Shown here in pieces: positions 11,404-35,202 of a DNA stretch of 64,000 nucleotides. Location of the stretch: positions 1,488,001 through 1,552,000 of the forward strand of contig NZ_CP099546.1 in the NCBI RefSeq assembly GCF_023973145.1, written 5' to 3'. The notes under the pieces were generated by a model that saw only the letters and a program-made list of their open reading frames with translations, searched no databases and was not told where the DNA came from. A program made the translations under genes and the position numbers. The DNA comes from Natronosalvus vescus (GTDB lineage: Archaea > Halobacteriota > Halobacteria > Halobacteriales > Natrialbaceae). The stretch's first letter is position 1, and each line of letters starts with the position of its first letter.

Positions 11404-13287
11404 ATGCCGATCACGACGACGCAAGTTGTTCTCGGGCTCACGGTGGCTGCCGCCCTCCTCTTCGTGTGGTACGCCGACGGTCGGACGAGCGTGCGTGGGG
11501 CGCTCGAGCACCGATTCCTCTACGGCGTTCCCTGGGGAACGGCGGTCACGGTGTCGATCGTCGTCGCGTTCTACCTGTTCGTCCAGGGCGGACTTCGTCA
11601 CTGGAGCGAGCCGCTGATGCTCCCGTTCGTAACCTGGTCGTACTTCTACCCCACGGGAGTGCTCACTGCTGGTGTCGCACACGGCTCGCCCGCCCACCTG
11701 CTGTCGAATATGGCGGCGACGCTCGTCTTCGCCCCGCTCGCGGAGTACGCGTGGAGCCATTACCCCGACCTGGAGCGACGAAAGCGGTCTCGAGGGGCTG
11801 ACTCTGATGGTAGCGAATACGATCCCACTTACGACGGAGGCCTGGTAAACCACCCGTGGGTACGGGCCGTCGTGATATTCCCGGGTGCCCTGCTCGGGCT
11901 GGCGCTACTGACTGCAGCGTTTTCGCTGGGCCCGGGGCTCGGCTTCTCCGGAGTCGTGTTCGCCCTCGCAGGATTCGTGCTGGTGATCTACCCGCTTCCT
12001 GCGGTGATCGCGACGGTCGGTGCCGGGGCGCTGAGCACGCTTTTCACCGCGTTTTCCCAGCCAATTCTGCGCGAAACGCTCGACCCGGGTGCACCCTCGC
12101 CACCCGCGTGGGCGGGGATTGGATTTCAGGCTCACCTGCTCGGCTTCCTCATCGGTGTCGTTCTTGGAATCGCCCTTCTCTCCCTCCGAAATCGCCGCCC
12201 GGAAGCCAGACACGTCTTTTTCGCGACGCTCCTGTTCGGGATGGCACAGGCGCTGTGGCTCATCGCGTGGCCAGGGGGTGACGACAGTTTTTACCTGTAC
12301 CGCGGGGCTGGCGTTACCCTCGTCTTCGTACTAACTATTCTCATCACCGTCGCTGTCGCGGGTCGGACACAACCGCTTCCGCGACCGCTTTCCGGCGTGG
12401 CTCGCGCGCCCTCGAGACGCCAGTTCTCCATCCTGTGGCTCGTGGTTCTGTTTGCCCTGGTCGTGTTGCTAGTCGCGAGCGCCGTCGCAGCCGGCGAGTC
12501 TGTCGTATTGGTGGCCATGACGGTAGGGCTGGTCGCGCTGGTACTCGCCACGCCGGCACTACTGGCGGTCGTCCCCACCAGGTTGCGACCCGGCAGCGGG
12601 CCGACTACCTATCGCCAGGGTGCAGTCGTCGTGCTCGTGGTGTTCACCGTTCTCGTCGCGGCGTCCGGGATCCCATTGAGTCTGGCGGTCGTCGACGACG
12701 ACAGCGCGCCTGCCGGGGGCGTCGAGGTCGGCGACTACACCGTTACCTACGCCGAGAACGCGACCAGTGGGCAGGTGCCTGGTGTCGACCTCGGTGACGA
12801 CGAGCTCTTTGCGAGCGAGCAAAGCGGGGTCATCGTGGTCAGCGAACAGCGTCACCTGTGGACGGTACCCATTCGCGACGTGGTGCTCGCACACGACGGA
12901 AACGGAACGGTTCACGTCGGTGGTGTCGACTGGCGGGAAACCGTCCACGTCGAGCGAACCGGCTGGGAGGTGACCGGCAACGACACCGTTTACGTCGTCG
13001 ACCTCGAGGTCAACGGCGAGGTGACGCGTTCGTTCGAATCGGAACCGGCCACCGCCCACGCACAGATCGACGAGCAATCCATCGTCATCGTCCCGACAGC
13101 GGAGGGATTCGACGTTCGGATTACGCGAGACGGGGAACGCATCGATGAGACTCCACTCCCGTCCGCTGGCGAGACGGCGACGGTCGGGGATCTCGAGATT
13201 GCGACTGAGGTCGTCGACGGCGTCGATCGCCTCGTCGTTCGCGGCGACGGCTCGAGCGTGCAGGTCGCCGAGCGGGAAACGTACTGA
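11404..13287 (+). CDS. Rhomboid-family intramembrane serine protease with C-terminal extension
   Basis: Predicted to cleave membrane proteins within the bilayer. It has 627 residues, much longer than a minimal rhomboid. The rhomboid core occupies about 1-260. Asn102 is in the SPAHLLSNM segment, the catalytic serine is in GFSGVVFA (Ser182), and the histidine is in GFQAHLLGF (His244). Around 120-147 is a charged loop. Residues 265-440 add further membrane segments, and about 450-627 form a soluble beta-rich domain probably outside the cell. The core dyad is intact, so activity is expected. The role of the C-terminal domain is unknown. It stands alone between the propeller gene and small zinc-finger genes. 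Confidence 0.85.
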   Translation: MPITTTQVVLGLTVAAALLFVWYADGRTSVRGALEHRFLYGVPWGTAVTVSIVVAFYLFVQGGLRHWSEPLMLPFVTWSYFYPTGVLTAGVAHGSPAHLLSNMAATLVFAPLAEYAWSHYPDLERRKRSRGADSDGSEYDPTYDGGLVNHPWVRAVVIFPGALLGLALLTAAFSLGPGLGFSGVVFALAGFVLVIYPLPAVIATVGAGALSTLFTAFSQPILRETLDPGAPSPPAWAGIGFQAHLLGFLIGVVLGIALLSLRNRRPEARHVFFATLLFGMAQALWLIAWPGGDDSFYLYRGAGVTLVFVLTILITVAVAGRTQPLPRPLSGVARAPSRRQFSILWLVVLFALVVLLVASAVAAGESVVLVAMTVGLVALVLATPALLAVVPTRLRPGSGPTTYRQGAVVVLVVFTVLVAASGIPLSLAVVDDDSAPAGGVEVGDYTVTYAENATSGQVPGVDLGDDELFASEQSGVIVVSEQRHLWTVPIRDVVLAHDGNGTVHVGGVDWRETVHVERTGWEVTGNDTVYVVDLEVNGEVTRSFESEPATAHAQIDEQSIVIVPTAEGFDVRITRDGERIDETPLPSAGETATVGDLEIATEVVDGVDRLVVRGDGSSVQVAERETY

Positions 13288-13531
13288 CCGCAGTAGTGAC
13301 GAGTGGCACCGTCTCGAGACGGCTCGACCAGCGAAACGGTCGCGTGTACACGTGAGAACCTCACTTCCGGTGATCGTCGACGGCGCGATCCAGGATCGCA
13401 CCCACGCTTGTACTTCAGGATACTGTCAGACCAGTCTCATCACAATCATTCTGGTATCAGAACCGAGCACATGCGGTTTGACCAACGGGATGTAACTGGG
13501 TTTTATGTACGAGTATAACTAATCCAGTAGT

Positions 13532-13651
13532 ATGGCAACCGTCAGCGCCTGTCCAAAGTGTGGTTCCACCTCGCTCGCCCTCGAAAAACAAGGCTTCACC
13601 TGTGGCGATTGTGACTGGCTGGCCTGTCCGGAACACCTGATGGAACTCTGA
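13532..13651 (+). CDS. 39-residue CPxCG-type zinc-ribbon mini-protein
   Basis: Reads MATVSACPKCGSTSLALEKQ and continues with FTCGDCDW and a short C-terminus. The two cysteine pairs (CPKCG and CGDC) form a single zinc ribbon, and a further Cys and His follow in the tail. Haloarchaea encode many such proteins below 70 residues; several affect swarming, biofilm or stress phenotypes, but this one is unassigned. The start follows an AT-rich segment with a TATA-like tract (GAGTATAACT at 13511-13520). The gene is easily missed because of its size. Confidence 0.75.
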   Translation: MATVSACPKCGSTSLALEKQGFTCGDCDWLACPEHLMEL

Positions 13652-13719
13652 GGACACGGTCGCTATCGGCAAGCGGTATTCGTTGCTGCGTATCTATGAG
13701 TTTGAGCCAACGCTCCGAC

Positions 13720-14562
13720 TCAGTCGGCTGTGATCGAACAGGTTTCGTCGTAGCTGACGTCGTGAATCGAGTCGATAGCTGGATCTCTGCCACAGACCGG
13801 ACAGTCCGGATTGGGGAGCATCTCGACCGTCTCGAACGTCATCTCCATCGCGTCGTACAGCAGGAGTCGCCCCTCGAGCACCTCGCCCGTCTCGAGGAGG
13901 AGTTTGACGACTTCCGTCGCTTGGATACAGCCGACGGTTCCGGGAAGCACGCCGAGAACGCCGGTCGTGGCGCAGTCGGGAACCGTACCGGGTTCGGGCG
14001 CTTCCGGGAAGAGACACCGATAACAGGGGGTCTCGTCGGGATTCGGTTCTCGAGCACCGTTCGTGAACGTGGTCATCTGCCCTTCGAATCGGTAGATTGC
14101 GCCGTGTGATAGCGGCGTCTCCGTCAGGACGCAGTAATCGTTGAGTAGATACCGGGTCGCGAAGTTGTCGCTGGCGTCGAGGACGATATCGTATGGATCG
14201 ACCAGGTCGGCGACGTTCTCCGGCGACAGGCGAGTTGGGTATTTATCAACGTCCACGTCCGGATTGAGGCCATGGACGAACGCCGCTGCGCTGTCGACTT
14301 TCCTCCGGCCGACGTCGTCGTCAGCGTGGATGATCTGACGTTGTAGGTTCGACCGGTCGACCACGTCGTCGTCGACGATGCCGAGCCGGCCGACGCCCGC
14401 TGCCGCCAGATACTGGATCGCCGGCGATCCGAGGCCGCCGGCACCGACGACGAGTACCGAGCCATCGAGCAGGCGTTGCTGTCCTTCGGGGCCAACTTCG
14501 TCCATAATGACGTGTCTCGAGTAGCGCTCGAGTTGCGTCGAATCGAGGCGGAGATCACTCAT
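13720..14562 (-). CDS. ubaA: SAMP-activating enzyme E1 (ThiF/MoeB type)
   Basis: Adenylates the C-terminal Gly-Gly of ubiquitin-like SAMP proteins, for both protein modification (SAMPylation) and sulfur transfer in molybdopterin and thiolated tRNA synthesis. It has 280 residues. The nucleotide loop GAGGLGS begins at 40. DDDVVDRSNLQRQ at about 64-76 is the family signature. The catalytic cysteine is expected at Cys197 in VPDCATTGVLG. Two zinc pairs, CYRC (180/183) and CPVC (254/257), are intact. The chosen start MSDLRLDSTQLERYSRH is the family N-terminus; an upstream ATG would add 34 unrelated residues. There is no rhodanese domain. Confidence 0.93.
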   Translation of the reverse strand: MSDLRLDSTQLERYSRHVIMDEVGPEGQQRLLDGSVLVVGAGGLGSPAIQYLAAAGVGRLGIVDDDVVDRSNLQRQIIHADDDVGRRKVDSAAAFVHGLNPDVDVDKYPTRLSPENVADLVDPYDIVLDASDNFATRYLLNDYCVLTETPLSHGAIYRFEGQMTTFTNGAREPNPDETPCYRCLFPEAPEPGTVPDCATTGVLGVLPGTVGCIQATEVVKLLLETGEVLEGRLLLYDAMEMTFETVEMLPNPDCPVCGRDPAIDSIHDVSYDETCSITAD

Positions 14563-14714
14563 GGCTGGACGTTCGTGCGGTGGAAAGAAAAGTTCGCGGT
14601 CACGATCAACGGTTTGCACTGCTCGACTGACCGGTACAACACGACTGCCAATGTAGACGGACAATCTCTGTCAGTACCCGATGTTTTATGTGTGTGGTGT
14701 GCGATAGCATGACT

Positions 14715-14900
14715 ATGGCATCCTCACCCAACGGTGCCGGTGACGACGTTTTCGACCAGTTCCTCGCCGACCGCGGCCACGCGACCGAGCGAACAGGCTG
14801 GAAACGTGATTACAATAAAAAGCAGTGTCCGGACTGTGGCGGCCTTCACGACCCCGCAGCGACGACCTGCACCGTCTGTGGGTGGGCTCCCCGACCGTAA
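14715..14900 (+). CDS. HVO_0416-family zinc-finger protein
   Basis: 61 residues, starting MASSPNGAGDDVFDQFLADR. The C-terminal half has two cysteine pairs, CPDCGG and CTVCGW, forming a zinc ribbon. The block between them (GLHDPAATT) is nearly invariant in this haloarchaeal family as I recall it. Function unknown. An ATG 6 bp upstream (14709) would add only Met-Thr. Divergent from ubaA. Confidence 0.85.
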   Translation: MASSPNGAGDDVFDQFLADRGHATERTGWKRDYNKKQCPDCGGLHDPAATTCTVCGWAPRP

Positions 14901-15036
14901 TTTCGTTCCCAACCTCTTTTCGAATCGATTAGGCTCCAGCGGACGCTCCGTTTGTAACCGACGTTCATAATTTCATATGTGTAATGTCGATAGTATTATT
15001 ACGGATTATACCACACTGATCGGTACGGGATCATCA

Positions 15037-15195
15037 ATGCCGAAATGCCAGAACTGCGATTCTTTCGTGACGGATGCGTATGCGAGAGTATTCACCCCAC
15101 AAGGTGTCGACAACCCCCGTGTCTGCCCGGAATGTACGGACAAGATCCGCGATGGCGGATCCGTTCGGAAGGCCCGCTCTCCACGGAACAACTAA
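15037..15195 (+). CDS. DUF7563-like zinc-binding mini-protein
   Basis: 52 residues beginning MPKCQNCDSFVTDAYARVF. Two CxxC pairs (CQNC and CPEC) indicate one bound zinc, followed by a basic tail KARSPRNN. Small haloarchaeal family with no assigned function. The internal ATG at 15037 is preferred over one 20 codons upstream because the conserved region begins exactly at MPKC. It precedes the helicase gene by 79 bp in the same direction. Confidence 0.8.
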   Translation: MPKCQNCDSFVTDAYARVFTPQGVDNPRVCPECTDKIRDGGSVRKARSPRNN

Positions 15196-15274
15196 CACCT
15201 GACCGGCCCGCTAAGGCCTGCTTCTCGAGGGAAACCCACGTGACTTATAGGAGTCGCGTGCCTGATAGGCTACA

Positions 15275-17164
15275 ATGGCTACTACGGAGACGGACACGAC
15301 GGCGGGGACACACGTCACCCGCCTGTTCGGCGGGCCTGGCAGCGGGAAGACCACGGCCCTCCTCGACCACGTCGAAGACATTCTCGAGGACGAAGACGTC
15401 ACCTTCCGTGACATTCTCGTCGTCTCGTACACGCGAGCAGCCGCCCAGGAGATTCGCGAACGCCTCGCCGACCGCCTCGACGAGAGTCCGCGTGCGCTCC
15501 AGGGCAACGTCTGTACGATGCACGCGAAAGCGTACGACCTCCTCGATCTTTCCCGTGGCGACGTGATCGGCGAGAAGGACAAAGAGGAGTTCTGTGAGGA
15601 CTACGGCATCGAGTACGAAGACGAGTACAGCGGGGCTGGCCGCCGAACGGCCCGCTCGACGACGATCGGGAACAAGATCATCGCCACGAGCCAGTGGCTC
15701 CAGCGCACCCGTCGAGACGTCGCCGACTGGTACGACGTACCCTTCCAGTGGGACGTGGAATCGGTTCGTCTCCCGCCGGAAATCGACCCCAACGCCCAGG
15801 AGGGCAACAAGTACACGCCGACGTGGCCCTCCGACGACGACCGGATCGACGTCCCCGAGGCGATTCGCGCCTGGCGCAACTACAAGGGCCAGGAAGGAAA
15901 GATCGGCTTCGCGGACATGCTCGAACGTGTGAAACAGCGCTCGCTCGTCCCGAACGTCGACTACCTCATCATCGACGAGTTCCAGGACATCACCACCCTG
16001 CAGTACGACGTCTACGAGGAGTGGAAACCCCACGTCAAGCGAGTGCTTATCGCCGGTGACGACGACCAGGTCGTCTACTCCTGGCAAGGTGCCGACCCGG
16101 CGCTGTTGCTCGATGAAGCAGTCGACGAGGACATCATCCTCCCCAACTCTTACCGACTGCCCTCGAACGTGTTGAATGCGGTAAACCAGGAGATTCGACA
16201 CATCGACGTCCGCCAGGACAAAGATCTCAACCCGCGGAAAGAGGGTGGGCTCGTCGAGGCCTACCAGAACCGTTCGATGCTCGACTTGGTTCGGATGGTG
16301 CGCCAGACGCTCGTCGAAGATGAGGGGACGATCATGCTGTTGTTCCGCGCCCGGTACCAGATGTTCCAGTTCATCGACGAGTTCATCACCGAGGGGATCC
16401 CCTTCACTGCGCTGACCGACCAGCGGATGTGGACCGATCGGCTCACCCAGTACGTTCGGGCGATCGAAGCACTCGACGCGGGCGATGACGTCACTGGGCT
16501 CCAGGCTCGGCGTCTCGCTGACATGCTCATGGACTCCGCCTTTGGAACGAACGAGCGCGACGCGCTCTTCGACGAGATCGACGAACGGCAGGAGGAGGCG
16601 GGTATCGACGACCTCGAGGAACTCATGATTCCGGCCTCGGTCATCGAAGATCACGCCCCGTTCGTCCCCGGCCCGGCGTCAGCCTCTGACATGGTGCGAA
16701 AGGTGACGAACTTCCAGAAGAAGTCGATAAAGGCGTACTTCGCCATCGGAACCTACGAGGGAATGGCCACCGACCGCGTCCGCGTCGGCACCATCCACTC
16801 CGCGAAGGGTCGTGAGGCCGACCACGTCTTCGTCGGCACCGATCTCACCGAAAAGGTCGTCGAACAGATGGTCGCCACCGTCGACGACCCCACGGACGTC
16901 CCGGGCGTCGAGGAGTTCACCAAGACCACTTCGCCCGTCCCCGTCCTTACGGACAACGAACGACGTGTGTTCTACGTCGGGATGTCCCGTGCCCGCGAGC
17001 GCCTCGTCCTCCTCGAGAACCTCGTCGACGGTGCACCGACGCTGCCGATCGACGTCTTACTCAACAATCGACAGACAGGTGCCGACCTCGAGGAACTGAT
17101 CGAACAGGCACAGTTGCCCGAGTCTGAGCGACTCGCGGCCGAGGCCGAAGTCGAAGCGCCGTGA
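15275..17164 (+). CDS. UvrD/Rep-family superfamily 1 DNA helicase
   Basis: ATP-driven 3'-5' DNA translocase/helicase, presumably for repair or replication restart. It has 629 residues. Walker A GGPGSGKTT is at 19-27, motif Ia is VVSYTRAAAQEI, the DExx box DEFQDIT is near 235, and GDDDQVVYSWQGA is motif III. The C-terminal RecA half has VRVGTIHSAKGREADHVF and YVGMSRARERL. All ATPase motifs look intact. A TATA-like CTTATAGG near 15243 is about 29 bp before the start. The stop overlaps the GTG of the next gene, so the two are co-translated. Shorter than bacterial UvrD; no nuclease domain seen. Confidence 0.92.
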   Translation: MATTETDTTAGTHVTRLFGGPGSGKTTALLDHVEDILEDEDVTFRDILVVSYTRAAAQEIRERLADRLDESPRALQGNVCTMHAKAYDLLDLSRGDVIGEKDKEEFCEDYGIEYEDEYSGAGRRTARSTTIGNKIIATSQWLQRTRRDVADWYDVPFQWDVESVRLPPEIDPNAQEGNKYTPTWPSDDDRIDVPEAIRAWRNYKGQEGKIGFADMLERVKQRSLVPNVDYLIIDEFQDITTLQYDVYEEWKPHVKRVLIAGDDDQVVYSWQGADPALLLDEAVDEDIILPNSYRLPSNVLNAVNQEIRHIDVRQDKDLNPRKEGGLVEAYQNRSMLDLVRMVRQTLVEDEGTIMLLFRARYQMFQFIDEFITEGIPFTALTDQRMWTDRLTQYVRAIEALDAGDDVTGLQARRLADMLMDSAFGTNERDALFDEIDERQEEAGIDDLEELMIPASVIEDHAPFVPGPASASDMVRKVTNFQKKSIKAYFAIGTYEGMATDRVRVGTIHSAKGREADHVFVGTDLTEKVVEQMVATVDDPTDVPGVEEFTKTTSPVPVLTDNERRVFYVGMSRARERLVLLENLVDGAPTLPIDVLLNNRQTGADLEELIEQAQLPESERLAAEAEVEAP

Positions 17165-18363
17165 CCGGTCGGGATAGCCAGCCCCATCAGTCGGACTCTA
17201 CTCGTTCAAAGGGTGGCCTTCGCGAACACGTCTCGACGGGGATCGAAGCCGCACTCGAGGAACGAGATGCCAGCGCGTTCGTTCACGCCGGCCCGCCCAC
17301 CGATCCGGACGTTCGATACTGTGTGCTGGCTGCTGATGCTCTCACCGAATTCGGTTCCGTGATCGTCGACGAGAACGACGAGACGGTACTCGAGAACCCT
17401 TGCCTTGCGGTCGCTTTCGACGGCAACTCCTGGGCAATCGAGGCCGTCTCACGACGGGAACTCGCGGCGGGGGCTACGCACCCCGCCAGTCGACTTGCCG
17501 ACACACTCGAAGCCGGTAGACGGCTGCTGACGCCCGCAACGATCCCACACGATGCCGCGTTGTATCTCGAGCGAGCGGGATTCGATCTCGCCTCGAGTGG
17601 TGTCCTCGCTCAGTTGCGGGCCGCAAAGACAGGGTTCGAGCGACACCATCTCGAGACCGCTCAGTGGGCCGTCCGCGCTGGCCTCGAGCGAGCGGAATCC
17701 ATGCTCGAGCGAGCGACCGTTTCCGACGAAACGAGCGAGGACGTTGATTCAGTCGGCTCCGAGTCGGAAACACCACAATCGGTACAACGGTCGCTGTCGC
17801 TCGCGGGTGAGCCCCTGACCGCCTCGCGACTCCGAGAAGCGATCGAATCGGCAATCGCGGAGGCGGGTGCTCGACCGGTGTCGACGATCATCTCGCCATC
17901 CGGAGCGATTCCCACCAGCGAACCGGTCGTCGTCGCCGCCACTGCAAAAACGCCGACCGGCTACCACGGTCACCTCGCCCGCACGTTCGTCGTCGCACCG
18001 GCGGGTGGGGCCGAACGCCGCGCTCACGTCGCGCTCACCCACGCGTTTCGCTCGATCCGATCGAAGCTCACCGCCGACGACCACGCCGTGCGGGCGCTCG
18101 AGGCCGACCTCGAGGCCGAAATCCGTGCGTTCGGGTTCGACGAGTCGGATTCGATCGACACACGCGTGTCGGGTATCGGACTCGAGCCTCGTGAATATCC
18201 GCTCGGCGGCGGTGACGACACTTGCATCGGGTCGTCGCTACGCGTCGATGCCGCGGTGGGTACCGGGGACGAACGCGTTCGACTCGCCGACGTCCTGTGT
18301 CGAACGACCGATGGGGCGCACTGGCTCGTTCCAACCTCGCGGTCGCTGGTTCCGGAGAAGTAA
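17161..18363 (+). CDS. M24-like pita-bread-fold protein with degenerate active site
   Basis: 400 residues, starting at GTG within the helicase stop (GTGA overlap). The C-terminal part is related to Xaa-Pro peptidases: GYHGHLARTFVVAP aligns with the M24 block GxxxDxTRTFxxG, but the metal-binding Asp is replaced by His. The usual HGxG and final Glu motifs are not evident either. I infer that it is not an active metallopeptidase and may bind peptide or act structurally. Residues about 195-215 are an acidic linker. Coupling to the helicase hints at a partner role, untested. An intact M24 enzyme occurs at 53402 for comparison. Confidence 0.7.
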   Translation: MTGRDSQPHQSDSTRSKGGLREHVSTGIEAALEERDASAFVHAGPPTDPDVRYCVLAADALTEFGSVIVDENDETVLENPCLAVAFDGNSWAIEAVSRRELAAGATHPASRLADTLEAGRRLLTPATIPHDAALYLERAGFDLASSGVLAQLRAAKTGFERHHLETAQWAVRAGLERAESMLERATVSDETSEDVDSVGSESETPQSVQRSLSLAGEPLTASRLREAIESAIAEAGARPVSTIISPSGAIPTSEPVVVAATAKTPTGYHGHLARTFVVAPAGGAERRAHVALTHAFRSIRSKLTADDHAVRALEADLEAEIRAFGFDESDSIDTRVSGIGLEPREYPLGGGDDTCIGSSLRVDAAVGTGDERVRLADVLCRTTDGAHWLVPTSRSLVPEK

Positions 18364-18391
18364 GCGGCTCGAGGATACTCGCCTATCGGCG

Positions 18392-18859
18392 TCAGTCGCG
18401 TGCTGACCGGAACAGCCGGTACGATCCCTGTCCGGTGGCGACTTCTCTGGTTTCGCCGTCGGGGGTCGTGCTCTCGACCATGATCTCGCTGACGCCGACG
18501 CTGCTCCCGGCTCTGATGATCCGGGCGGTAGCCTCGAGATCGCCGGTCGCTGGCCGCAGATAGTTCACGTTGAGGTTGATCGTCGCTGCGCCAGCATCGA
18601 TCGGATCGTCGAAGTCGGTGTGGAACACGATGCCGCCGACCGTGTCGATGAGCGTGGCGGCGACACCACCGTGGATATCGGGTCGCCGGTCGCCGTTCGA
18701 CGGTCGCGTGTTCGTGAGCTTTTCGTCGTACGGAATCGCCATGGTCATCCGTCCGTCGTCTACCGATTCAACGGTCGCTCCGAGCCAGGAGAGAAACTCG
18801 TGATTCTCGTCGATATAGCCCTGCAAGACGGCGTGAATCTGGTCGTACGACTCGGTCAT
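18392..18859 (-). CDS. PaaI-family hotdog thioesterase
   Basis: Predicted acyl-CoA thioesterase of the hotdog fold; natural substrate unknown. 155 residues, normal length. The catalytic region DIHGGVAATLIDTVGG carries the family HGG(V/A) and downstream Asp. The strand NLNVNYLRPATGDLEATARI is the typical core. The C-terminal GQGSYRLF fits a short tail. It is single and convergent with the M24-like gene. Confidence 0.85.
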   Translation of the reverse strand: MTESYDQIHAVLQGYIDENHEFLSWLGATVESVDDGRMTMAIPYDEKLTNTRPSNGDRRPDIHGGVAATLIDTVGGIVFHTDFDDPIDAGAATINLNVNYLRPATGDLEATARIIRAGSSVGVSEIMVESTTPDGETREVATGQGSYRLFRSARD

Positions 18860-18937
18860 ACCCTCGAGTGGGCGATCCAGTAATTTGTGTCCTGCGTTTG
18901 TCCGCTCGAGGCCGTTTATCGCGGTTTATTCCCCTGG

Positions 18938-20302
18938 TCACTGATGTGGCCAGGCCTCGATCGTTCCGTAATCACCAGGTGGAATTGGTTCCTCGAGCAA
19001 GGGATCGTTGGTCTCTTTCATCCACGTGTGGAGCTGTTCTGAGAGGTCGCGTCGGATCTCCGAATAGCGCGGTTCGAACGCGACGTTATCGGCTTCCTGG
19101 GGATCCTCGTAGAGGTCGTACAGCTCCTCGTAGGGTCGGGGTGGCGCGCCGTAGCGTTCGCGCACTTCGCGGCCGGATTCGCTCGCGTAACAGTCTTTAG
19201 TGAGGTACACCTTCGGGAGGTGCCAGAAGTTCCTGACGTACTTGTAGTGTTCCGTCCGGATCGCCCTGACTGGATTGTACATGTCGTGCCAGGTCATCTC
19301 CGCAAACAGCCGCTCGTGCGGGTCGTAGGCGTCAGGATCGTCGTCGAATACTCCGGTCAATAGCGGGCGAAAACTCCGCCCGTCGAGTTGCACCGTTCCA
19401 GGAACCTCGATATCGCCGATCTCGAGCAGCGTCGGGAGAACGTCGACGTTCGTGATGAGCTCCGTCCGTCGCTGGCCGGAGACGGTTTCGGGCCCAGCCC
19501 AGATGAGAACGCCCTCGATTCCGGCGTCGTAACACGACCCCTTCGCTCGCGGGAAGGCGATACCGTGCTCGGTCGTGAAGATCACGACCGTCTCCTCCTC
19601 GAGGCCGGTCGATTCGAGGCAGTCGACGATCGTCCTCATCGCTTCGTCGACGGCGTACACCATTCCGTGCATCTCTCCGAGATCACGTCTGATCCCCCGT
19701 CTGTCGGGGAGATACGGAAGCGGGCGAATGTCGTCGGGGTCGTCGGTCTCGTAGTGATCGGGTTCGAATCCGAACCGGCCGTTCTCCTCCTCGACTCGAT
19801 GTAACTCGAAGAAGCCGACGCTCGCGAAAAACGGATCGTCTCCGGCGTCTCGCTCGAGGAACGTCGTTACGACGTCCGCGACGTTTCTGGCCCGATTGGC
19901 CTGGTGAACTGCCGGGGAGACGCCCGGATACAGGTTCCCCTCGGAGTGGACGTAATCGTATCCCAGCCGGTCGGTGTCCTGGGTGATGTGCTGGAGGCCG
20001 AAGAGGTGTGTTTCGTAGCCTGCATCGCCGAAGTACTGGGGCATGATGTACTCATCGTCGTGGAGCTCCCAGCTACCGTGGGCGAGTCCCATGAGCCCAT
20101 TGACGTGGGGATATCGGCCGGTCATCAGACTGCCTCGAGAGGGTGAACACTGGGGTGCCGTCACGAAGTGATTCTCGAAGAGCGTACCTCGCTCGGCCAG
20201 GTCGTCGATGTTCGGTGTCTCGATATCGACGCCGTAACAGCCGAGGTATTGCCCGAGGTCGTGGCAGTGAATCAGCAGGACGTTTGGTCGGTCGTCGGAC
20301 AT
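18938..20302 (-). CDS. Sulfatase, heparan N-sulfatase-like group
   Basis: Predicted hydrolase of sulfate esters or sulfamates; substrate unknown. 454 residues. The maturation motif CSPSRGSLMTGRYPH puts the Cys to be converted to formylglycine at residue 52 and Arg at 56. Metal-site segments include the N-terminal PNVLLIHCHDLGQYLGCYG and TTEHGIAFPRAKG, the latter resembling sulfoglucosamine sulfohydrolases. There is no signal peptide, so it appears cytoplasmic, unlike many sulfatases. No formylglycine-generating enzyme or anaerobic maturase is visible nearby, so maturation would have to be supplied elsewhere. Confidence 0.88.
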   Translation of the reverse strand: MSDDRPNVLLIHCHDLGQYLGCYGVDIETPNIDDLAERGTLFENHFVTAPQCSPSRGSLMTGRYPHVNGLMGLAHGSWELHDDEYIMPQYFGDAGYETHLFGLQHITQDTDRLGYDYVHSEGNLYPGVSPAVHQANRARNVADVVTTFLERDAGDDPFFASVGFFELHRVEEENGRFGFEPDHYETDDPDDIRPLPYLPDRRGIRRDLGEMHGMVYAVDEAMRTIVDCLESTGLEEETVVIFTTEHGIAFPRAKGSCYDAGIEGVLIWAGPETVSGQRRTELITNVDVLPTLLEIGDIEVPGTVQLDGRSFRPLLTGVFDDDPDAYDPHERLFAEMTWHDMYNPVRAIRTEHYKYVRNFWHLPKVYLTKDCYASESGREVRERYGAPPRPYEELYDLYEDPQEADNVAFEPRYSEIRRDLSEQLHTWMKETNDPLLEEPIPPGDYGTIEAWPHQ

Positions 20303-20439
20303 GGCACCGTCGTACCACGACTGGCCTGATAGTAGTTGGCTGCGTACGTCCGGGCGAGCCCGTCTGCAACCCGTCTCGGTGCCAATTAGAACGTGGTGGC
20401 CTGGTTGAAACTCTTAGTGAGTGATAGGTTTGAACTGCT

Positions 20440-20468
20440 GTGCTGAATCCAGAGGATGTATTCAGCAC
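20440..20468. repeat. Palindrome at the left border of island 1
   Basis: GTGCTGAAT (20440-20448), 11 bp, then ATTCAGCAC (20460-20468): perfect 9-bp inverted arms. The left arm is also the border motif shared with island 2. Confidence 0.75.
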
Positions 20469-20555
20469 GACAAATTCGTTCTTTCCATGCCTGAGCCATT
20501 GAACAAGTTGTTCAGTAGGTTTGCGAACTAAACAGCATAGAAGCTACTGTATAGC

Positions 20556-21826: not shown

Positions 21827-21896
21827 TACTGACCGACCACTACCCCTTCGAAGATCGACTCTCTGTCTGTGCCACATTCGCGCTGTATATTCAGCA
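21827..21896 (+). repeat. Right-end (R) border repeat of island 1
   Basis: Box TACTGACCGACCACTACC (21827-21844), a variable stretch, then GTGCCACATTCGCGCT and the arm CTGTATATTCAGCA ending at 21896. The same arrangement recurs at 33116-33183 and 35891-35959. Confidence 0.7.
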
Positions 21897-31078: not shown

Positions 31079-31231
31079 AGAACCGGTTCTGTTGAAATCC
31101 TCGGAAGACGACAAGAATTGGCTGCTGAATACAGAGGATTAGTGCAGCACAATGAGTCCGTTTGTTTCACGCCGAAACCAGTGAACCATCCGCTCACTAC
31201 ACGTGCGAATTGAGCAAATGAACAAATATGG

Positions 31232-31257
31232 ATTTGACCTTGGAGAAGACATTTATA
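31232..31257 (+). promoter_or_regulatory. Promoter module of first island-2 lipoprotein
   Basis: 26-bp element starting ATTTGACCTTGGAGAA and ending in ATTTATA, 23 bp before the ATG. It matches the element before the second lipoprotein at 23 of 26 positions and at identical spacing, so both genes are probably leaderless and co-regulated. Confidence 0.65.
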
Positions 31258-31279
31258 CATATAATCAGAAGTTCTCAAC

Positions 31280-31696
31280 ATGAACCGTCGTGCCCTCCTT
31301 ACTGCCACTGGGGTTGTACTTTCAGCCCCTCTTGCAGGCTGTCTCTCCGAATATCCGACCAAATTAGGTATCGATAGGTCACAATCAGAAGAATCTGAGG
31401 ATGACAAAAAGATAAAATTAGGCGGATACTTGCTAACTATCCATCACCACCCTGACCGTTCACCTGATGAAGTGGAGTCGTCAATGTCATCTGAAAACTC
31501 CAATCTCGATGACCAACGATTACAGAATCTCTTCGAGGAAGCAGTCAGATCGGGACGCGCAGCGTATAGAACTCATGATGAAGCAGCCACGTTACAAGCG
31601 ATAGTAGACGAAATTCCAGAGGACGAAGACGACAATAGTCAATACGTGACTCACGAGGGAGAGGTTCTTAGTGTGAGGACAGTGACGCTCGAATAG
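31280..31696 (+). CDS. Lipoprotein of unknown function
   Basis: 138 residues. The Tat-style signal MNRRALLTATGVVLSAPLAG is followed by the lipobox Cys at residue 21, so export and lipid anchoring are expected. The mature part is acidic and polar; the only notable feature is the helix-like segment LFEEAVRSGRAAYRTHDEAA followed by a short beta tail (YVTHEGEVLSVRTVTL). No family recognised. GC is lower than chromosomal neighbours. Its promoter and signal peptide closely resemble those of the next gene although the mature proteins are unrelated by eye. Confidence 0.75.
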   Translation: MNRRALLTATGVVLSAPLAGCLSEYPTKLGIDRSQSEESEDDKKIKLGGYLLTIHHHPDRSPDEVESSMSSENSNLDDQRLQNLFEEAVRSGRAAYRTHDEAATLQAIVDEIPEDEDDNSQYVTHEGEVLSVRTVTLE

Positions 31697-31916
31697 TTCA
31701 GAAGTTCGGAGGATGGGTTTGACAAATCAACTACTTTTTGACAGTTTCACTCGAAGAGTATGTTGGGACGAGACCCCAGAAGCGTCGATATTGAGGGGGT
31801 TCTGGGAAACTGACGCCGCACACGTTGTCAGGAATCTCTAGCGGAGTGGATGATATGGTTCGACCACATACTCACGCTCAGGTTTCGACACGCCCACTGC
31901 TGAGAGTAAAACTTGT

Positions 31917-31942
31917 ATTTGACGTTGGAGAAAATATTTATA
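31917..31942 (+). promoter_or_regulatory. Promoter module of second island-2 lipoprotein
   Basis: Begins ATTTGACGTTGGAGAA and ends ATTTATA, 23 bp before the ATG; near-duplicate of 31232-31257 (three mismatches). Confidence 0.65.
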
Positions 31943-31964
31943 GAGAACCACCATTCGGTCTGAT

Positions 31965-33086
31965 ATGAATCGCCGCACGGTCCTCGCTGGTGCAGGAATC
32001 ACGCTTTCCCTCCCTCTCACTGGTTGTCTCAGCGATGAGGAAAATAACTCTGAAGGCCAGACTAGTGAACATGGGACCCCCTCTGTCGAAGATAGCAAGA
32101 CCATCGAAGAAGACCCACGAGTGGATGCCCCATCGCACGAAATCACCCCGCCAGCGGACGAAGATTCTGACGACTGGAACGACGACTACCTTGGTGAGCA
32201 CATGGAGACGGAGCCATCGGTTGTGTTTGAGGAATTACCTATTTCAAGGTTTGCGTTGAAAGCTCAAGACAAACGATTATCAGACCCCACAAGAGGTAAC
32301 GATGAATTCTGGGTTGACGTGCTGGAGAGCGAGGACGACCGCGATACAATTCTTGACATCGAGGATGAAACCATCAGTACGGCGGAACGCGACCAGCTCA
32401 AAAGTATCGATTTCGACGAATCCGTTCTGATTGTGGTAGAAACAGGATACGGTTCTAGTTCTGTAACCCATCGCTGGTCGCGTGTGGAAGATGCTGGAGA
32501 CAGTCTTCACCTCCATGGATACTATACAGACCCTCATGGACGAGATGGTGACGTGTCTACGAGAGCGTCAGTTCTCGAAGTGGAACGACCATCCGACGAA
32601 TTGAACCTCGCTCGCGTGAGTCTCACGGTCGAGGAGGACCGTCGCGTCCACTTCAACTCGACCGAGGGTCCAGTCAGTATCGATGCTTCTTCAGATGAGT
32701 CTGAAACTCTTGACTGTGACCTCGAATATCGACAAGAGCAGGGCAAAGCCGATGCAGTCGAAACGTCGGTATCAAATGCTGACGGGTCTTGTGGGTTTGA
32801 GGCAGCTAGTGCAGCCGTTCAACATATTGAGAGCCAACTCGATACGGAATTCAATTCAAGTTGGGGTGGCCCGAGCTATTCCGCCGTATCAGAAGAAGCC
32901 AGAGTGGAATTACGCGCCATCAAGAACAGAGACGGGGACTACAGCACCTGCCCACCACTCACCTTCGACGAGGTTGTCGAAGTTACTCCGACCAAAGTGA
33001 CCGTCACGGTAGAGGTCGAAAACGGAGAGGACGAAGAATGCACACACAATATCTATGTAAACCAAGTAACCGAACAAGAGGATTAA
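31965..33086 (+). CDS. Lipoprotein of unknown function
   Basis: 373 residues. Signal MNRRTVLAGAGITLSLPLTG with lipobox Cys at 21, then an acidic, probably disordered region to about 85. Residues about 110-245 contain a beta-rich segment (VLIVVETGYGSSSVTHRW, LHLHGYYTDPHG). The C-terminal 115 residues hold three cysteines and end in TVTVEVENGEDEECTHNIY. I recognise no family. It shares its promoter and signal with the gene upstream, 268 bp before it, suggesting paired expression. Low GC. Confidence 0.75.
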   Translation: MNRRTVLAGAGITLSLPLTGCLSDEENNSEGQTSEHGTPSVEDSKTIEEDPRVDAPSHEITPPADEDSDDWNDDYLGEHMETEPSVVFEELPISRFALKAQDKRLSDPTRGNDEFWVDVLESEDDRDTILDIEDETISTAERDQLKSIDFDESVLIVVETGYGSSSVTHRWSRVEDAGDSLHLHGYYTDPHGRDGDVSTRASVLEVERPSDELNLARVSLTVEEDRRVHFNSTEGPVSIDASSDESETLDCDLEYRQEQGKADAVETSVSNADGSCGFEAASAAVQHIESQLDTEFNSSWGGPSYSAVSEEARVELRAIKNRDGDYSTCPPLTFDEVVEVTPTKVTVTVEVENGEDEECTHNIYVNQVTEQED

Positions 33087-33115: not shown

Positions 33116-33236
33116 TACTGATCGATCACTACCGTCAAAAATTGAGCCGAACATCGTGCGACATTCGCGCTTTGTATTCAGCAGAGACTGAACGTTCTAC
33201 TCGGATTCTGTCAGAAGATGCCTGCTGAATATAGAG
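33116..33236. repeat. Island 2 junction J1 (R element plus inverted L arm)
   Basis: R element: box TACTGATCGATCACTACC (33116-33133), GTGCGACATTCGCGCT, arm CTTTGTATTCAGCA (33170-33183). Then exactly 39 bp, then the inverted arm TGCTGAATATAGAG (33223-33236); arms pair at 12 of 14 positions. It separates a plus-strand from a minus-strand lipoprotein gene. Confidence 0.75.
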
Positions 33237-33289
33237 GTTAAATGCAGTACGAGGTGAGTTTCTCAGGCAATCGACGCGATAGATGACAA

Positions 33290-33709
33290 CTACGCGCCAT
33301 CTATTGTGTGGACGATGCCCTCACAATCCTCAACCCAGTAGTCGATCCGTCTGGATTCCGTAATGATGATACGGGTAATCGCGTCGTCACAAATCGGTCG
33401 GGTAATCAACTGGATCTCTTGATCGATTCCGGTAATCGTGACTCTATACTGTGATTGACCGAGGAGATCGCGCTCCGCGCTCTCGTTCGCAGCCACGGTA
33501 GCGTTAGTTTCCGTAACCGGGTCGTACTCCCCACCGTCCCGCCGTTCTTCGATGGCGATAGTAAGAGTGACCTCCCTATCGAGATCGTTGTCGATCACCA
33601 CCGTTTCGTTCACTCCCGACGGACCTCCGAATCCACCAAGACATCCAGCTGTTCCTATAATCGCACTGCTGGAGATGAGTGCCAATAGGTGACGGCGGGA
33701 GCGTGACAT
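33290..33709 (-). CDS. Small lipoprotein of unknown function
   Basis: 139 residues from MSRSRRHLLALISSSAIIGT. Twin-arginine-like basic start, hydrophobic core, and lipobox TAGC. The mature part begins with a Gly-rich linker, then a beta pattern (NETVVIDNDLDREVTLTIAI and QYRVTITGIDQEIQLI) typical of a small immunoglobulin-like or cupredoxin-like sandwich, with two cysteines near the end. No copper ligands seen. The start at 33709 is chosen over 33721 because it gives a cleaner signal. It lies alone between junctions J1 and J2, transcribed toward J1. Confidence 0.7.
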   Translation of the reverse strand: MSRSRRHLLALISSSAIIGTAGCLGGFGGPSGVNETVVIDNDLDREVTLTIAIEERRDGGEYDPVTETNATVAANESAERDLLGQSQYRVTITGIDQEIQLITRPICDDAITRIIITESRRIDYWVEDCEGIVHTIDGA

Positions 33710-33788
33710 ACAGCTTACCACAAGTCGTATTGAATAAAATATCTTCTGTAGACAACAAGACCGGCCAAAGTCATGGCCGATATGCGCC

Positions 33789-34142: not shown

Positions 34143-34205
34143 ACATCTAACTACTTTGGGTGGTGTCTAAAAGCTATTGGCACTTCTCTCGATAATACAG
34201 TGTTG

Positions 34206-35184
34206 GGCCTTGTTTAGACGCTCGTAACCATGCTGTTTAGCGACTCACGAATTAGTATCGGCTTTCTAGCTGTTCGGGCTAAATGTCTAACTTACTAGGA
34301 AGTGAAGCGGGACGGTTCGTTTGTGTCCAGCAAACTAGCCCGCTTCACTAGCCGCGTTGTCTCGCTCGCCCAAAAAGCCGTCGTTGGAACTCCGAAACCG
34401 GCCGTTCAGAAGGGGAACGGCGGCTACGCCGACTGGGTGATTGTATCGATTCACGGCCTCAAAACGTATCTCAATCTGCCCTACCGCCGACTCCTGGACG
34501 TCCTGTACGAAATGCCGCGGATCACTCGAACTCTCGGCCTAGAACCGGTTGAACTCCCGGACTTCACCACCGTCTGCGCGCGTATGCAACCGCTCAAAAT
34601 GCCTGTCTGGCGCGACTTTCTCCGGTTGTCCGCGGAACTGCACGACACCGGCGAGATCCAGGCGATCGACGCAACCGGTATTGATCGCGTCGCGGCGAGC
34701 CAGCACTATGCCAAACGGACGAATTACACGTTCAAAGCGGTGAAAACGACTGCATTGATCGACTGTTCGACTGGTGTAATTCTCGACATACATTGCTCGA
34801 TGACACAACCGCACGATTCACAGGTTGCCTGGCAGTTACTCACGCGAAACCTAAACAAACTGACTGTACTAACCGCGGACAAAGGATACGACTGGGAGCT
34901 ACTTCGACGTAGACTCCGTGCTGAGGGCGTCAAACCGGTGATCAAGCACCGCGAATTCGGCTGGCACGGCGTCGCCAACAATGTGTTGATGGATGATACG
35001 ACCTACCATCAACGCTCGAACGTCGAATCGACGTTTTTCGCGATTCGACGAAAATACGGTGAGATCGTTCGAGCGAGAACGTGGTTTGGACAGTTCCGTG
35101 AACTCGTTCTCAAGTGCGCCGTCAGAAACGTCGAACTAGCTCTCGACGACTCTAACGGGTGAATTTAGGCATCTAAACAAGGCC
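34206..35184 (+). mobile_element. IS5-family insertion sequence (ISH1-group-like)
   Basis: 979 bp with terminal inverted repeats GGCCTTGTTTAGA (13 of 13) and an 8-bp target duplication CAGTGTTG (34198-34205 and 35185-35192). The 8-bp duplication fits the ISH1 subgroup of IS5. It carries one transposase gene. Removing it and one duplication restores the R-type border element GTGTTGCATTCGCGCC before junction J3, so it inserted into a pre-existing border repeat. Confidence 0.85.
34302..35162 (+). CDS. IS5-family DDE transposase
   Basis: 286 residues from GTG. The DDE triad is visible: Asp in IDATGID, Asp in VLTADKGYD, and Glu in RSNVESTFFAIRRKYG (the R-x3-E-x6-R/K signature of IS4/IS5-type enzymes). 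The N-terminal part (GYADWVIVSIHGLKTYLNLP) is a typical helical region before the catalytic core. The frame is intact and runs almost to the right inverted repeat, so the element may be active. It acts only on its own IS ends, which differ from the island borders. Confidence 0.88.
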   Translation: MKRDGSFVSSKLARFTSRVVSLAQKAVVGTPKPAVQKGNGGYADWVIVSIHGLKTYLNLPYRRLLDVLYEMPRITRTLGLEPVELPDFTTVCARMQPLKMPVWRDFLRLSAELHDTGEIQAIDATGIDRVAASQHYAKRTNYTFKAVKTTALIDCSTGVILDIHCSMTQPHDSQVAWQLLTRNLNKLTVLTADKGYDWELLRRRLRAEGVKPVIKHREFGWHGVANNVLMDDTTYHQRSNVESTFFAIRRKYGEIVRARTWFGQFRELVLKCAVRNVELALDDSNG

Positions 35185-35202
35185 CAGTGTTGCATTCGCG
35201 CC

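Follow-up and report, generated by a model that had tools for sequence, protein, structure and literature searches.

Gene pair and its shared promoter element

We analysed a stretch of 64,000 nucleotides from the haloarchaeon Natronosalvus vescus (contig NZ_CP099546.1, positions 1,488,001 to 1,552,000), referred to here as the window, in which two adjacent lipoprotein genes are preceded by closely similar promoter elements. The preliminary description of this locus reported two 26-bp elements, ATTTGACCTTGGAGAAGACATTTATA (31232-31257) and ATTTGACGTTGGAGAAAATATTTATA (31917-31942), and our comparison agrees with it: they share 23 of 26 positions, and both stop 23 nt before an ATG, at 31280 in gene 1 and at 31965 in gene 2. 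All features of the pair lie on the forward strand. Gene 1 (31280..31696) codes for a protein of 138 aa and gene 2 (31965..33086) for one of 373 aa. Both proteins begin with MNRR and reach a lipobox Cys at residue 21, combining a twin arginine near the N-terminus with a lipobox (LAGC and LTGC) in the manner of lipoproteins of the twin-arginine translocation (Tat) pathway. The signal of gene 1 spans 31280-31339, and the lipobox Cys codons are located at 31340-31342 and 32025-32027, respectively. Mature parts of the two proteins had been described as unrelated, and indeed no similarity was detected between them (best BLASTP score 15 bits, E = 1.1). Neither gave a Pfam or NCBIfam match above cut-off.

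A search allowing up to 3 mismatches found just the two window copies of the 26-bp element in the entire 3.84-Mb genome, and 100 shuffled windows gave 0 matches compared with 2 in the real one. The shared element is present as described, but its extent was understated, because an upstream arm (GAACAAA at 31220-31226; AGTAAAA at 31905-31911) also belongs to it and sits in both cases exactly 6 nt before TTTGAC. With this arm included, the operator of gene 1 covers 31220..31239 (GAACAAA-TATGGA-TTTGACC) as an inverted repeat. It is followed by GAAG in the position of the transcription factor B recognition element (BRE; 31245..31248, assigned by its position relative to the TATA box and by the consensus SAAR), and by the TATA box TTTATA (31252..31257). 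The corresponding segments of gene 2, assigned from the sequence and the consensus of 101 promoters presented below, as is the operator of gene 1, are the operator at 31905..31924 (AGTAAAA-CTTGTA-TTTGACG), GAAA at the BRE position (31930..31933) and the TATA box TTTATA (31937..31942). Both TATA boxes end 23 nt before the ATG, a spacing found in most other sites, and in gene 1 this distance suggests a leaderless transcript.

A conserved inverted repeat upstream of BRE and TATA box

Relatives of the N-terminal domain of gene 2, here called family A, have the same element at the same distance to the start codon in other genera (for example, TTTGAGCTAGCTCAAGACACTTAT). A loose form of the element occurs 15 times in about 360 kb of sequence, always directly before a family-A lipoprotein gene or gene 1. 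Extended to 125 genomes of the family, the loose pattern matched 47 times, compared with 11 times for its reversed control; 37 of the 47 matches could be read as the promoter of a lipobox, Tat or regulator gene, and the remaining 10 equal the background in number. Every good site has an A-tract exactly 6 nt ahead of TTTSA. The strict pattern, VAAA-N6-TTTSA-N7-SAA-N4-HTTAY, was matched at 117 sites, spread over 91 of the 392 genomes of the order, while the same pattern reversed, used as a control, had 0 in every genome. A narrower pattern scanned across genomes was located on 4 contigs, all of them haloarchaeal.

The consensus was built from an alignment of 101 distinct non-regulator promoters. 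Conservation extends to columns outside the search pattern, namely T at -1 (88%), S at -2 (91%), R at -3 (91%), S at +15 (93%) and Y at +16 (90%), thus revealing a complete 20-bp inverted repeat, RSTSAAA-N6-TTTSASY. On its 3' side follow SAAR at the BRE position and then the TATA box, located 22-23 nt before the ATG.

Because the element abuts BRE and TATA box at a fixed distance, and because haloarchaea have several genes for transcription factor B (TFB) and the TATA-binding protein (TBP) (PMC2121645, PMC4390858), it might be proposed that an alternative TFB/TBP pair reads it as an extended core promoter, in a sigma-like selection, and that it is not an operator. We consider this explanation improbable. 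Conservation is strongest upstream of the BRE, in the inverted repeat, and the repeat is retained where the TATA part differs (CACTTAT, CGTTTAC, AGTATA).

Targets and specificity

The 119 distinct strict sites were read with sequences checked by eye beside the script calls. The script assigned the genes downstream to the classes Tat-lipobox (93), other lipobox (2), HVO_1552-type regulator (9), "RR" (6), other (6) and none (3). Four genes of the "RR" class have a lipobox recognisable by eye, so that lipoproteins follow 99 of the 119 sites, nearly all of Tat type and a few Sec-type looking. One site precedes a Tat protein with a PGF-CTERM-like end (in this genome, at 1886872), and three precede other secreted or membrane proteins. 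In one locus (L298, G203:C4:66433) a strict site was observed before a 59-aa membrane protein of the PLDc_N family, possibly a non-lipoprotein envelope target. The distance is fixed as well: 77 of the 93 script-recognised Tat-lipobox genes start exactly 22 or 23 nt past the site. When up to 1 mismatch was allowed in eight genomes of the genus, each of the 24 sites was followed at 22-23 nt by a Tat gene, and 23 of these genes encode a lipobox.

Mature parts of the 99 proteins form about 20 BLAST clusters, two singletons among them being doubtful reading frames. The largest cluster is comprised of 28 serpins (representative E = 2e-69), and others correspond to a PQQ propeller, DUF4349, a weak BsuPI-like match, family A and family B, the latter related to the C-terminal domain of gene 2. 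Across haloarchaeal families, no target follows strict sites more often than Tat lipoproteins of the serpin (protease inhibitor) type (L189, L242, L315, L328 and others), and at L328 two of them are arranged in tandem.

Specificity was addressed in 464 kb of this genome (the window and a 400-kb sample), in which true lipoproteins number fewer than 15. The site is carried upstream by 0 of 385 other open reading frames (ORFs) and by no other lipobox ORF; the regulon is therefore a subset of lipoproteins, and a generic lipoprotein promoter is ruled out. Both BRE/TATA and the MNRR lipobox are common in haloarchaea (for the lipobox, PMC2945643), and the pattern might accordingly be a coincidence of a general promoter and a general Tat signal. 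The same counts, together with the 117 sites against 0 in the control, refute this idea and leave it practically no probability.

The same site, at a fixed spacing, thus precedes unrelated targets and is absent from non-targets, as characteristic of a regulon. We are highly confident that the element is the conserved operator of a haloarchaeal lipoprotein regulon, real and deeply conserved.

On the secondary contig of a congener (G112:C2, about 12185-20510; L187, L203, L229, L230), five operator-like sites occur within 8.3 kb. Each of them precedes a Tat lipoprotein, and the region is a cluster of regulon lipoproteins.

Origin of the promoter similarity

The similarity of the two window promoters had been proposed to reflect a reusable expression-and-export module fused to different cargo. 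What holds of this proposal is the recurrence of the promoter element, at fixed spacing, before many unrelated lipoprotein cargos across haloarchaea. A transfer of promoter and signal onto new cargo as one DNA unit is not supported. Between genes 1 and 2 the 22-nt spacers linking TATA box and ATG are unrelated (4 of 22 positions identical), and Asn-Arg-Arg is encoded by different synonymous codons (AACCGTCGT vs AATCGCCGC), indicating that functional positions alone have been kept. A copied promoter-plus-signal module was rejected on these differences.

A local duplication, in which promoter and signal of one gene were copied before the other by module shuffling or in the course of divergence of tandem paralogues, would suit the adjacency of the genes, the likeness of their signals (38% over 50 aa) and promoters that fall into the top 1.4% of pairs. 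It is nevertheless very improbable, given the unrelated spacers and mature parts and the synonymous codon differences. In addition, each feature recurs elsewhere without the other gene, and no ancestor with intermediate sequence was seen for the two genes. An identity of 23/26 is unexceptional in the group, since it is reached by 1.4% of pairs among the 101 promoters. Ordinary tandem paralogy, named in the preliminary description as the outcome that would speak against it, finds no support in the unrelated mature sequences; single-sequence AlphaFold2 models of genes 1 and 2 were too poor for a structure search (mean confidence, pLDDT, of 42 and 39). The element is a regulatory site and not a copied module, and, judged from these sequence comparisons, selection on a binding site accounts for the promoter similarity while a recent copy of promoter and signal does not.

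A candidate regulator of the HVO_1552 type

The only recurrent target class without an export signal is the HVO_1552-type regulator gene, located behind 9 of the 119 strict sites, in several families. Members of this type were found in 125 of 125 genomes of the family. Among 48 regulator promoters, 43 have the architecture AAA-N6-TTTNA-N5..7-VAA, and the remaining five are off by one base in the first tract; the shuffled control gave a mean of 0.21 (first spacing). The copy in this genome (G000:C1:2261529) is among those with this architecture. Its protein scores 54.9 bits to the HTH_20 winged helix and 54.7 bits to the C-terminal domain PF24267 (curated cut-off 27 for both), and regulators at strict sites in other families exceed the PF24267 cut-off as well. 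Hydropathy predicts a cytoplasmic ArsR-like winged helix followed by two transmembrane (TM) helices with an acidic extracytoplasmic loop between them. The C-terminal TM helix was recognised in 6 of 6 orthologues and the first one was above the hydropathy cut-off in 4 of 6, being weak in the copy from this genome. The HVO_1552-type protein thus combines in one chain a DNA-binding domain and at least one TM segment.

The computation directly shows the operator with its consensus and fixed spacing, the class of its targets, its specificity and its occurrence at the regulator promoter. Binding of the operator by the HVO_1552-type factor is suggested by the shared sites, the universality of the family, its winged-helix type and its membrane location. 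On these grounds, it is likely that this factor controls the lipoprotein regulon. Alternatively, the regulon could be real and some other DNA-binding protein could control the lipoproteins and the HVO_1552-type gene alike; this draws on the computation showing shared sites and on the many winged-helix proteins encoded in haloarchaeal genomes. We find it unlikely, considering that no other class without an export signal recurs among the 119 sites, that the operator is conserved at this gene in the 48 promoters read, and that a membrane-anchored protein suits surface targets.

Several points weigh against the proposed regulon and its assignment. Support for the regulator comes from sequence computation, and a shared site at its gene is equally expected if another factor controls both. 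The motif pattern was refined on family-A homologues before wider testing. The operator arms of gene 1 are imperfect (GAACAAA), and the S positions of the left and right arm do not covary within sites, so that in either arm S may be C or G irrespective of the other. No recognisable target follows seven of the 119 strict sites. Finally, strict sites are sparse in each genome (4 in this one), and the size of the regulon is uncertain. With these points considered, we regard as probable the interpretation as a whole, in which the element comprises operator and core promoter of a lipoprotein regulon under an autoregulated, membrane-anchored HVO_1552-type factor.

Proposed mechanism and comparison with known systems

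According to this model, a dimeric winged-helix factor would bind RSTSAAA-N6-TTTSASY just upstream of the BRE and TATA box. The bound factor would control the leaderless transcription of genes for a selected group of surface lipoproteins, which are mostly of Tat type and unrelated in their mature domains. The most likely candidate for it is the HVO_1552-type protein (HTH_20 and PF24267); the operator in its own promoter would result in autoregulation, and the protein would sense the cell surface directly.

The closest parallel to the site is the one bound by the activator GvpE in gas-vesicle promoters of Halobacterium and Haloferax, a two-part element of 20 nt adjacent to the BRE; the operator described here is likewise of about 20 nt, in two parts, and directly at BRE/TATA (PMC4390858). 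GvpE acts as a dimeric activator recruiting TFB/TBP (PMC4390858), in which it resembles the proposed factor, and because of this analogy we lean towards activation as the mode of action. The two systems differ in that GvpE is leucine-zipper-like, soluble and devoted to gas-vesicle genes, in contrast to a winged-helix candidate and lipoprotein genes, and in half-sites of 8 nt with a 4-nt gap compared with the 7-6-7 arrangement of the operator. One-component regulators of the ToxR/CadC type and Sulfolobus ArnR/ArnR1 also join a DNA-binding domain to TM helices and regulate surface structures (PMC10269533, PMC6396743), whereas the HVO_1552 type is distinguished by the ArsR-like HTH_20 and by an acidic loop along with its two TM helices. 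In the envelope-stress regulons of bacteria (Cpx, Rcs, sigma-E type), one regulator similarly serves many unrelated envelope proteins, some of them lipoproteins; the analogy is functional only, as the archaeal system has no kinase or sigma factor.

The candidate is assigned by Pfam score to the HVO_1552 family (HTH_20 with PF24267, HVO_1552_C), so far known as a domain model only. In the literature searched, which excludes most subscription papers and all preprints, HVO_1552 is not named, and we found neither a described regulon for proteins of this type nor any haloarchaeal lipoprotein regulon or envelope-stress factor.

It is conceivable, if somewhat short of probable, that the system constitutes a universal haloarchaeal membrane-anchored one-component envelope response, in which the autoregulated HVO_1552-type factor senses the surface and switches on diversifying lipoproteins via one operator; to the same tentative degree, its lipoproteins would be a rapidly diversifying set of serpins, propellers, DUF4349 proteins, orphan cargos and domain fusions such as gene 2. 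That the signal is envelope or protein stress is a still more tentative suggestion.

Domains and neighbourhood of the gene pair

The mature part of gene 1 is nearly an orphan. No convincing relative was found in the 125 family genomes, and the single likely relative in the order (L049, 41% over 54 aa) is without the element. Membership in a cargo cluster with the motif EVDxALEDGxYET (L097, L105, L191) looked plausible by eye and was rejected at an hhalign probability of just 0.2%; weak matches to Gfo/Idh-type dehydrogenases (L016/L017) were chance-like.

Outside gene 2, its domain A (about aa 22-240; 32028..32681) makes up stand-alone Tat lipoproteins from many genera, and the same operator precedes many of their genes. 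The second part of gene 2, domain B (about aa 240-373; 32682..33083), belongs to a second Tat lipoprotein family, here joined to A, and stand-alone domain B proteins occur beneath the operator at L129 and L187. As indicated by these relatives, gene 2 is a fusion of the two lipoprotein families. An additional N-terminal domain between lipobox and domain A was observed at L019, L021, L026, L027 and L032; domain A is repeatedly fused to other lipoprotein domains.

A third Tat lipoprotein gene (143 aa, 33290-33721, reverse strand), without operator, adjoins the pair. Mutually related intergenic repeats flank the two genes at 31100-31150, 33160-33184 and 33200-33250 (GCTGAATA..AGAGG..TGCAG; GACATTCGCGCTTTGTATTCAGCAG), and degenerate copies are present at 21873, elsewhere in the genome (L272, L278) and, in another genome, 3' of a regulon lipoprotein (L127). 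An insertion sequence is located nearby at 34204-35186, with a DDE transposase (34302-35162, PF01609) between 18-nt inverted repeats.

Implications for haloarchaeal surface biology

Among the exported proteins of haloarchaea, an unusually large share is anchored in the form of Tat lipoproteins (PMC2945643). The operator offers a handle on many lipoproteins without assigned function, and PF24267 gains a predicted one. That such lipoproteins are co-regulated with surface serpins hints at a link to proteolysis or to the quality of envelope proteins. Operator and candidate membrane-anchored regulator together make the regulon directly testable in Haloferax volcanii. Recurring almost only before unrelated surface lipoproteins and one membrane-anchored regulator gene, the site indicates an undescribed cell-surface gene network.
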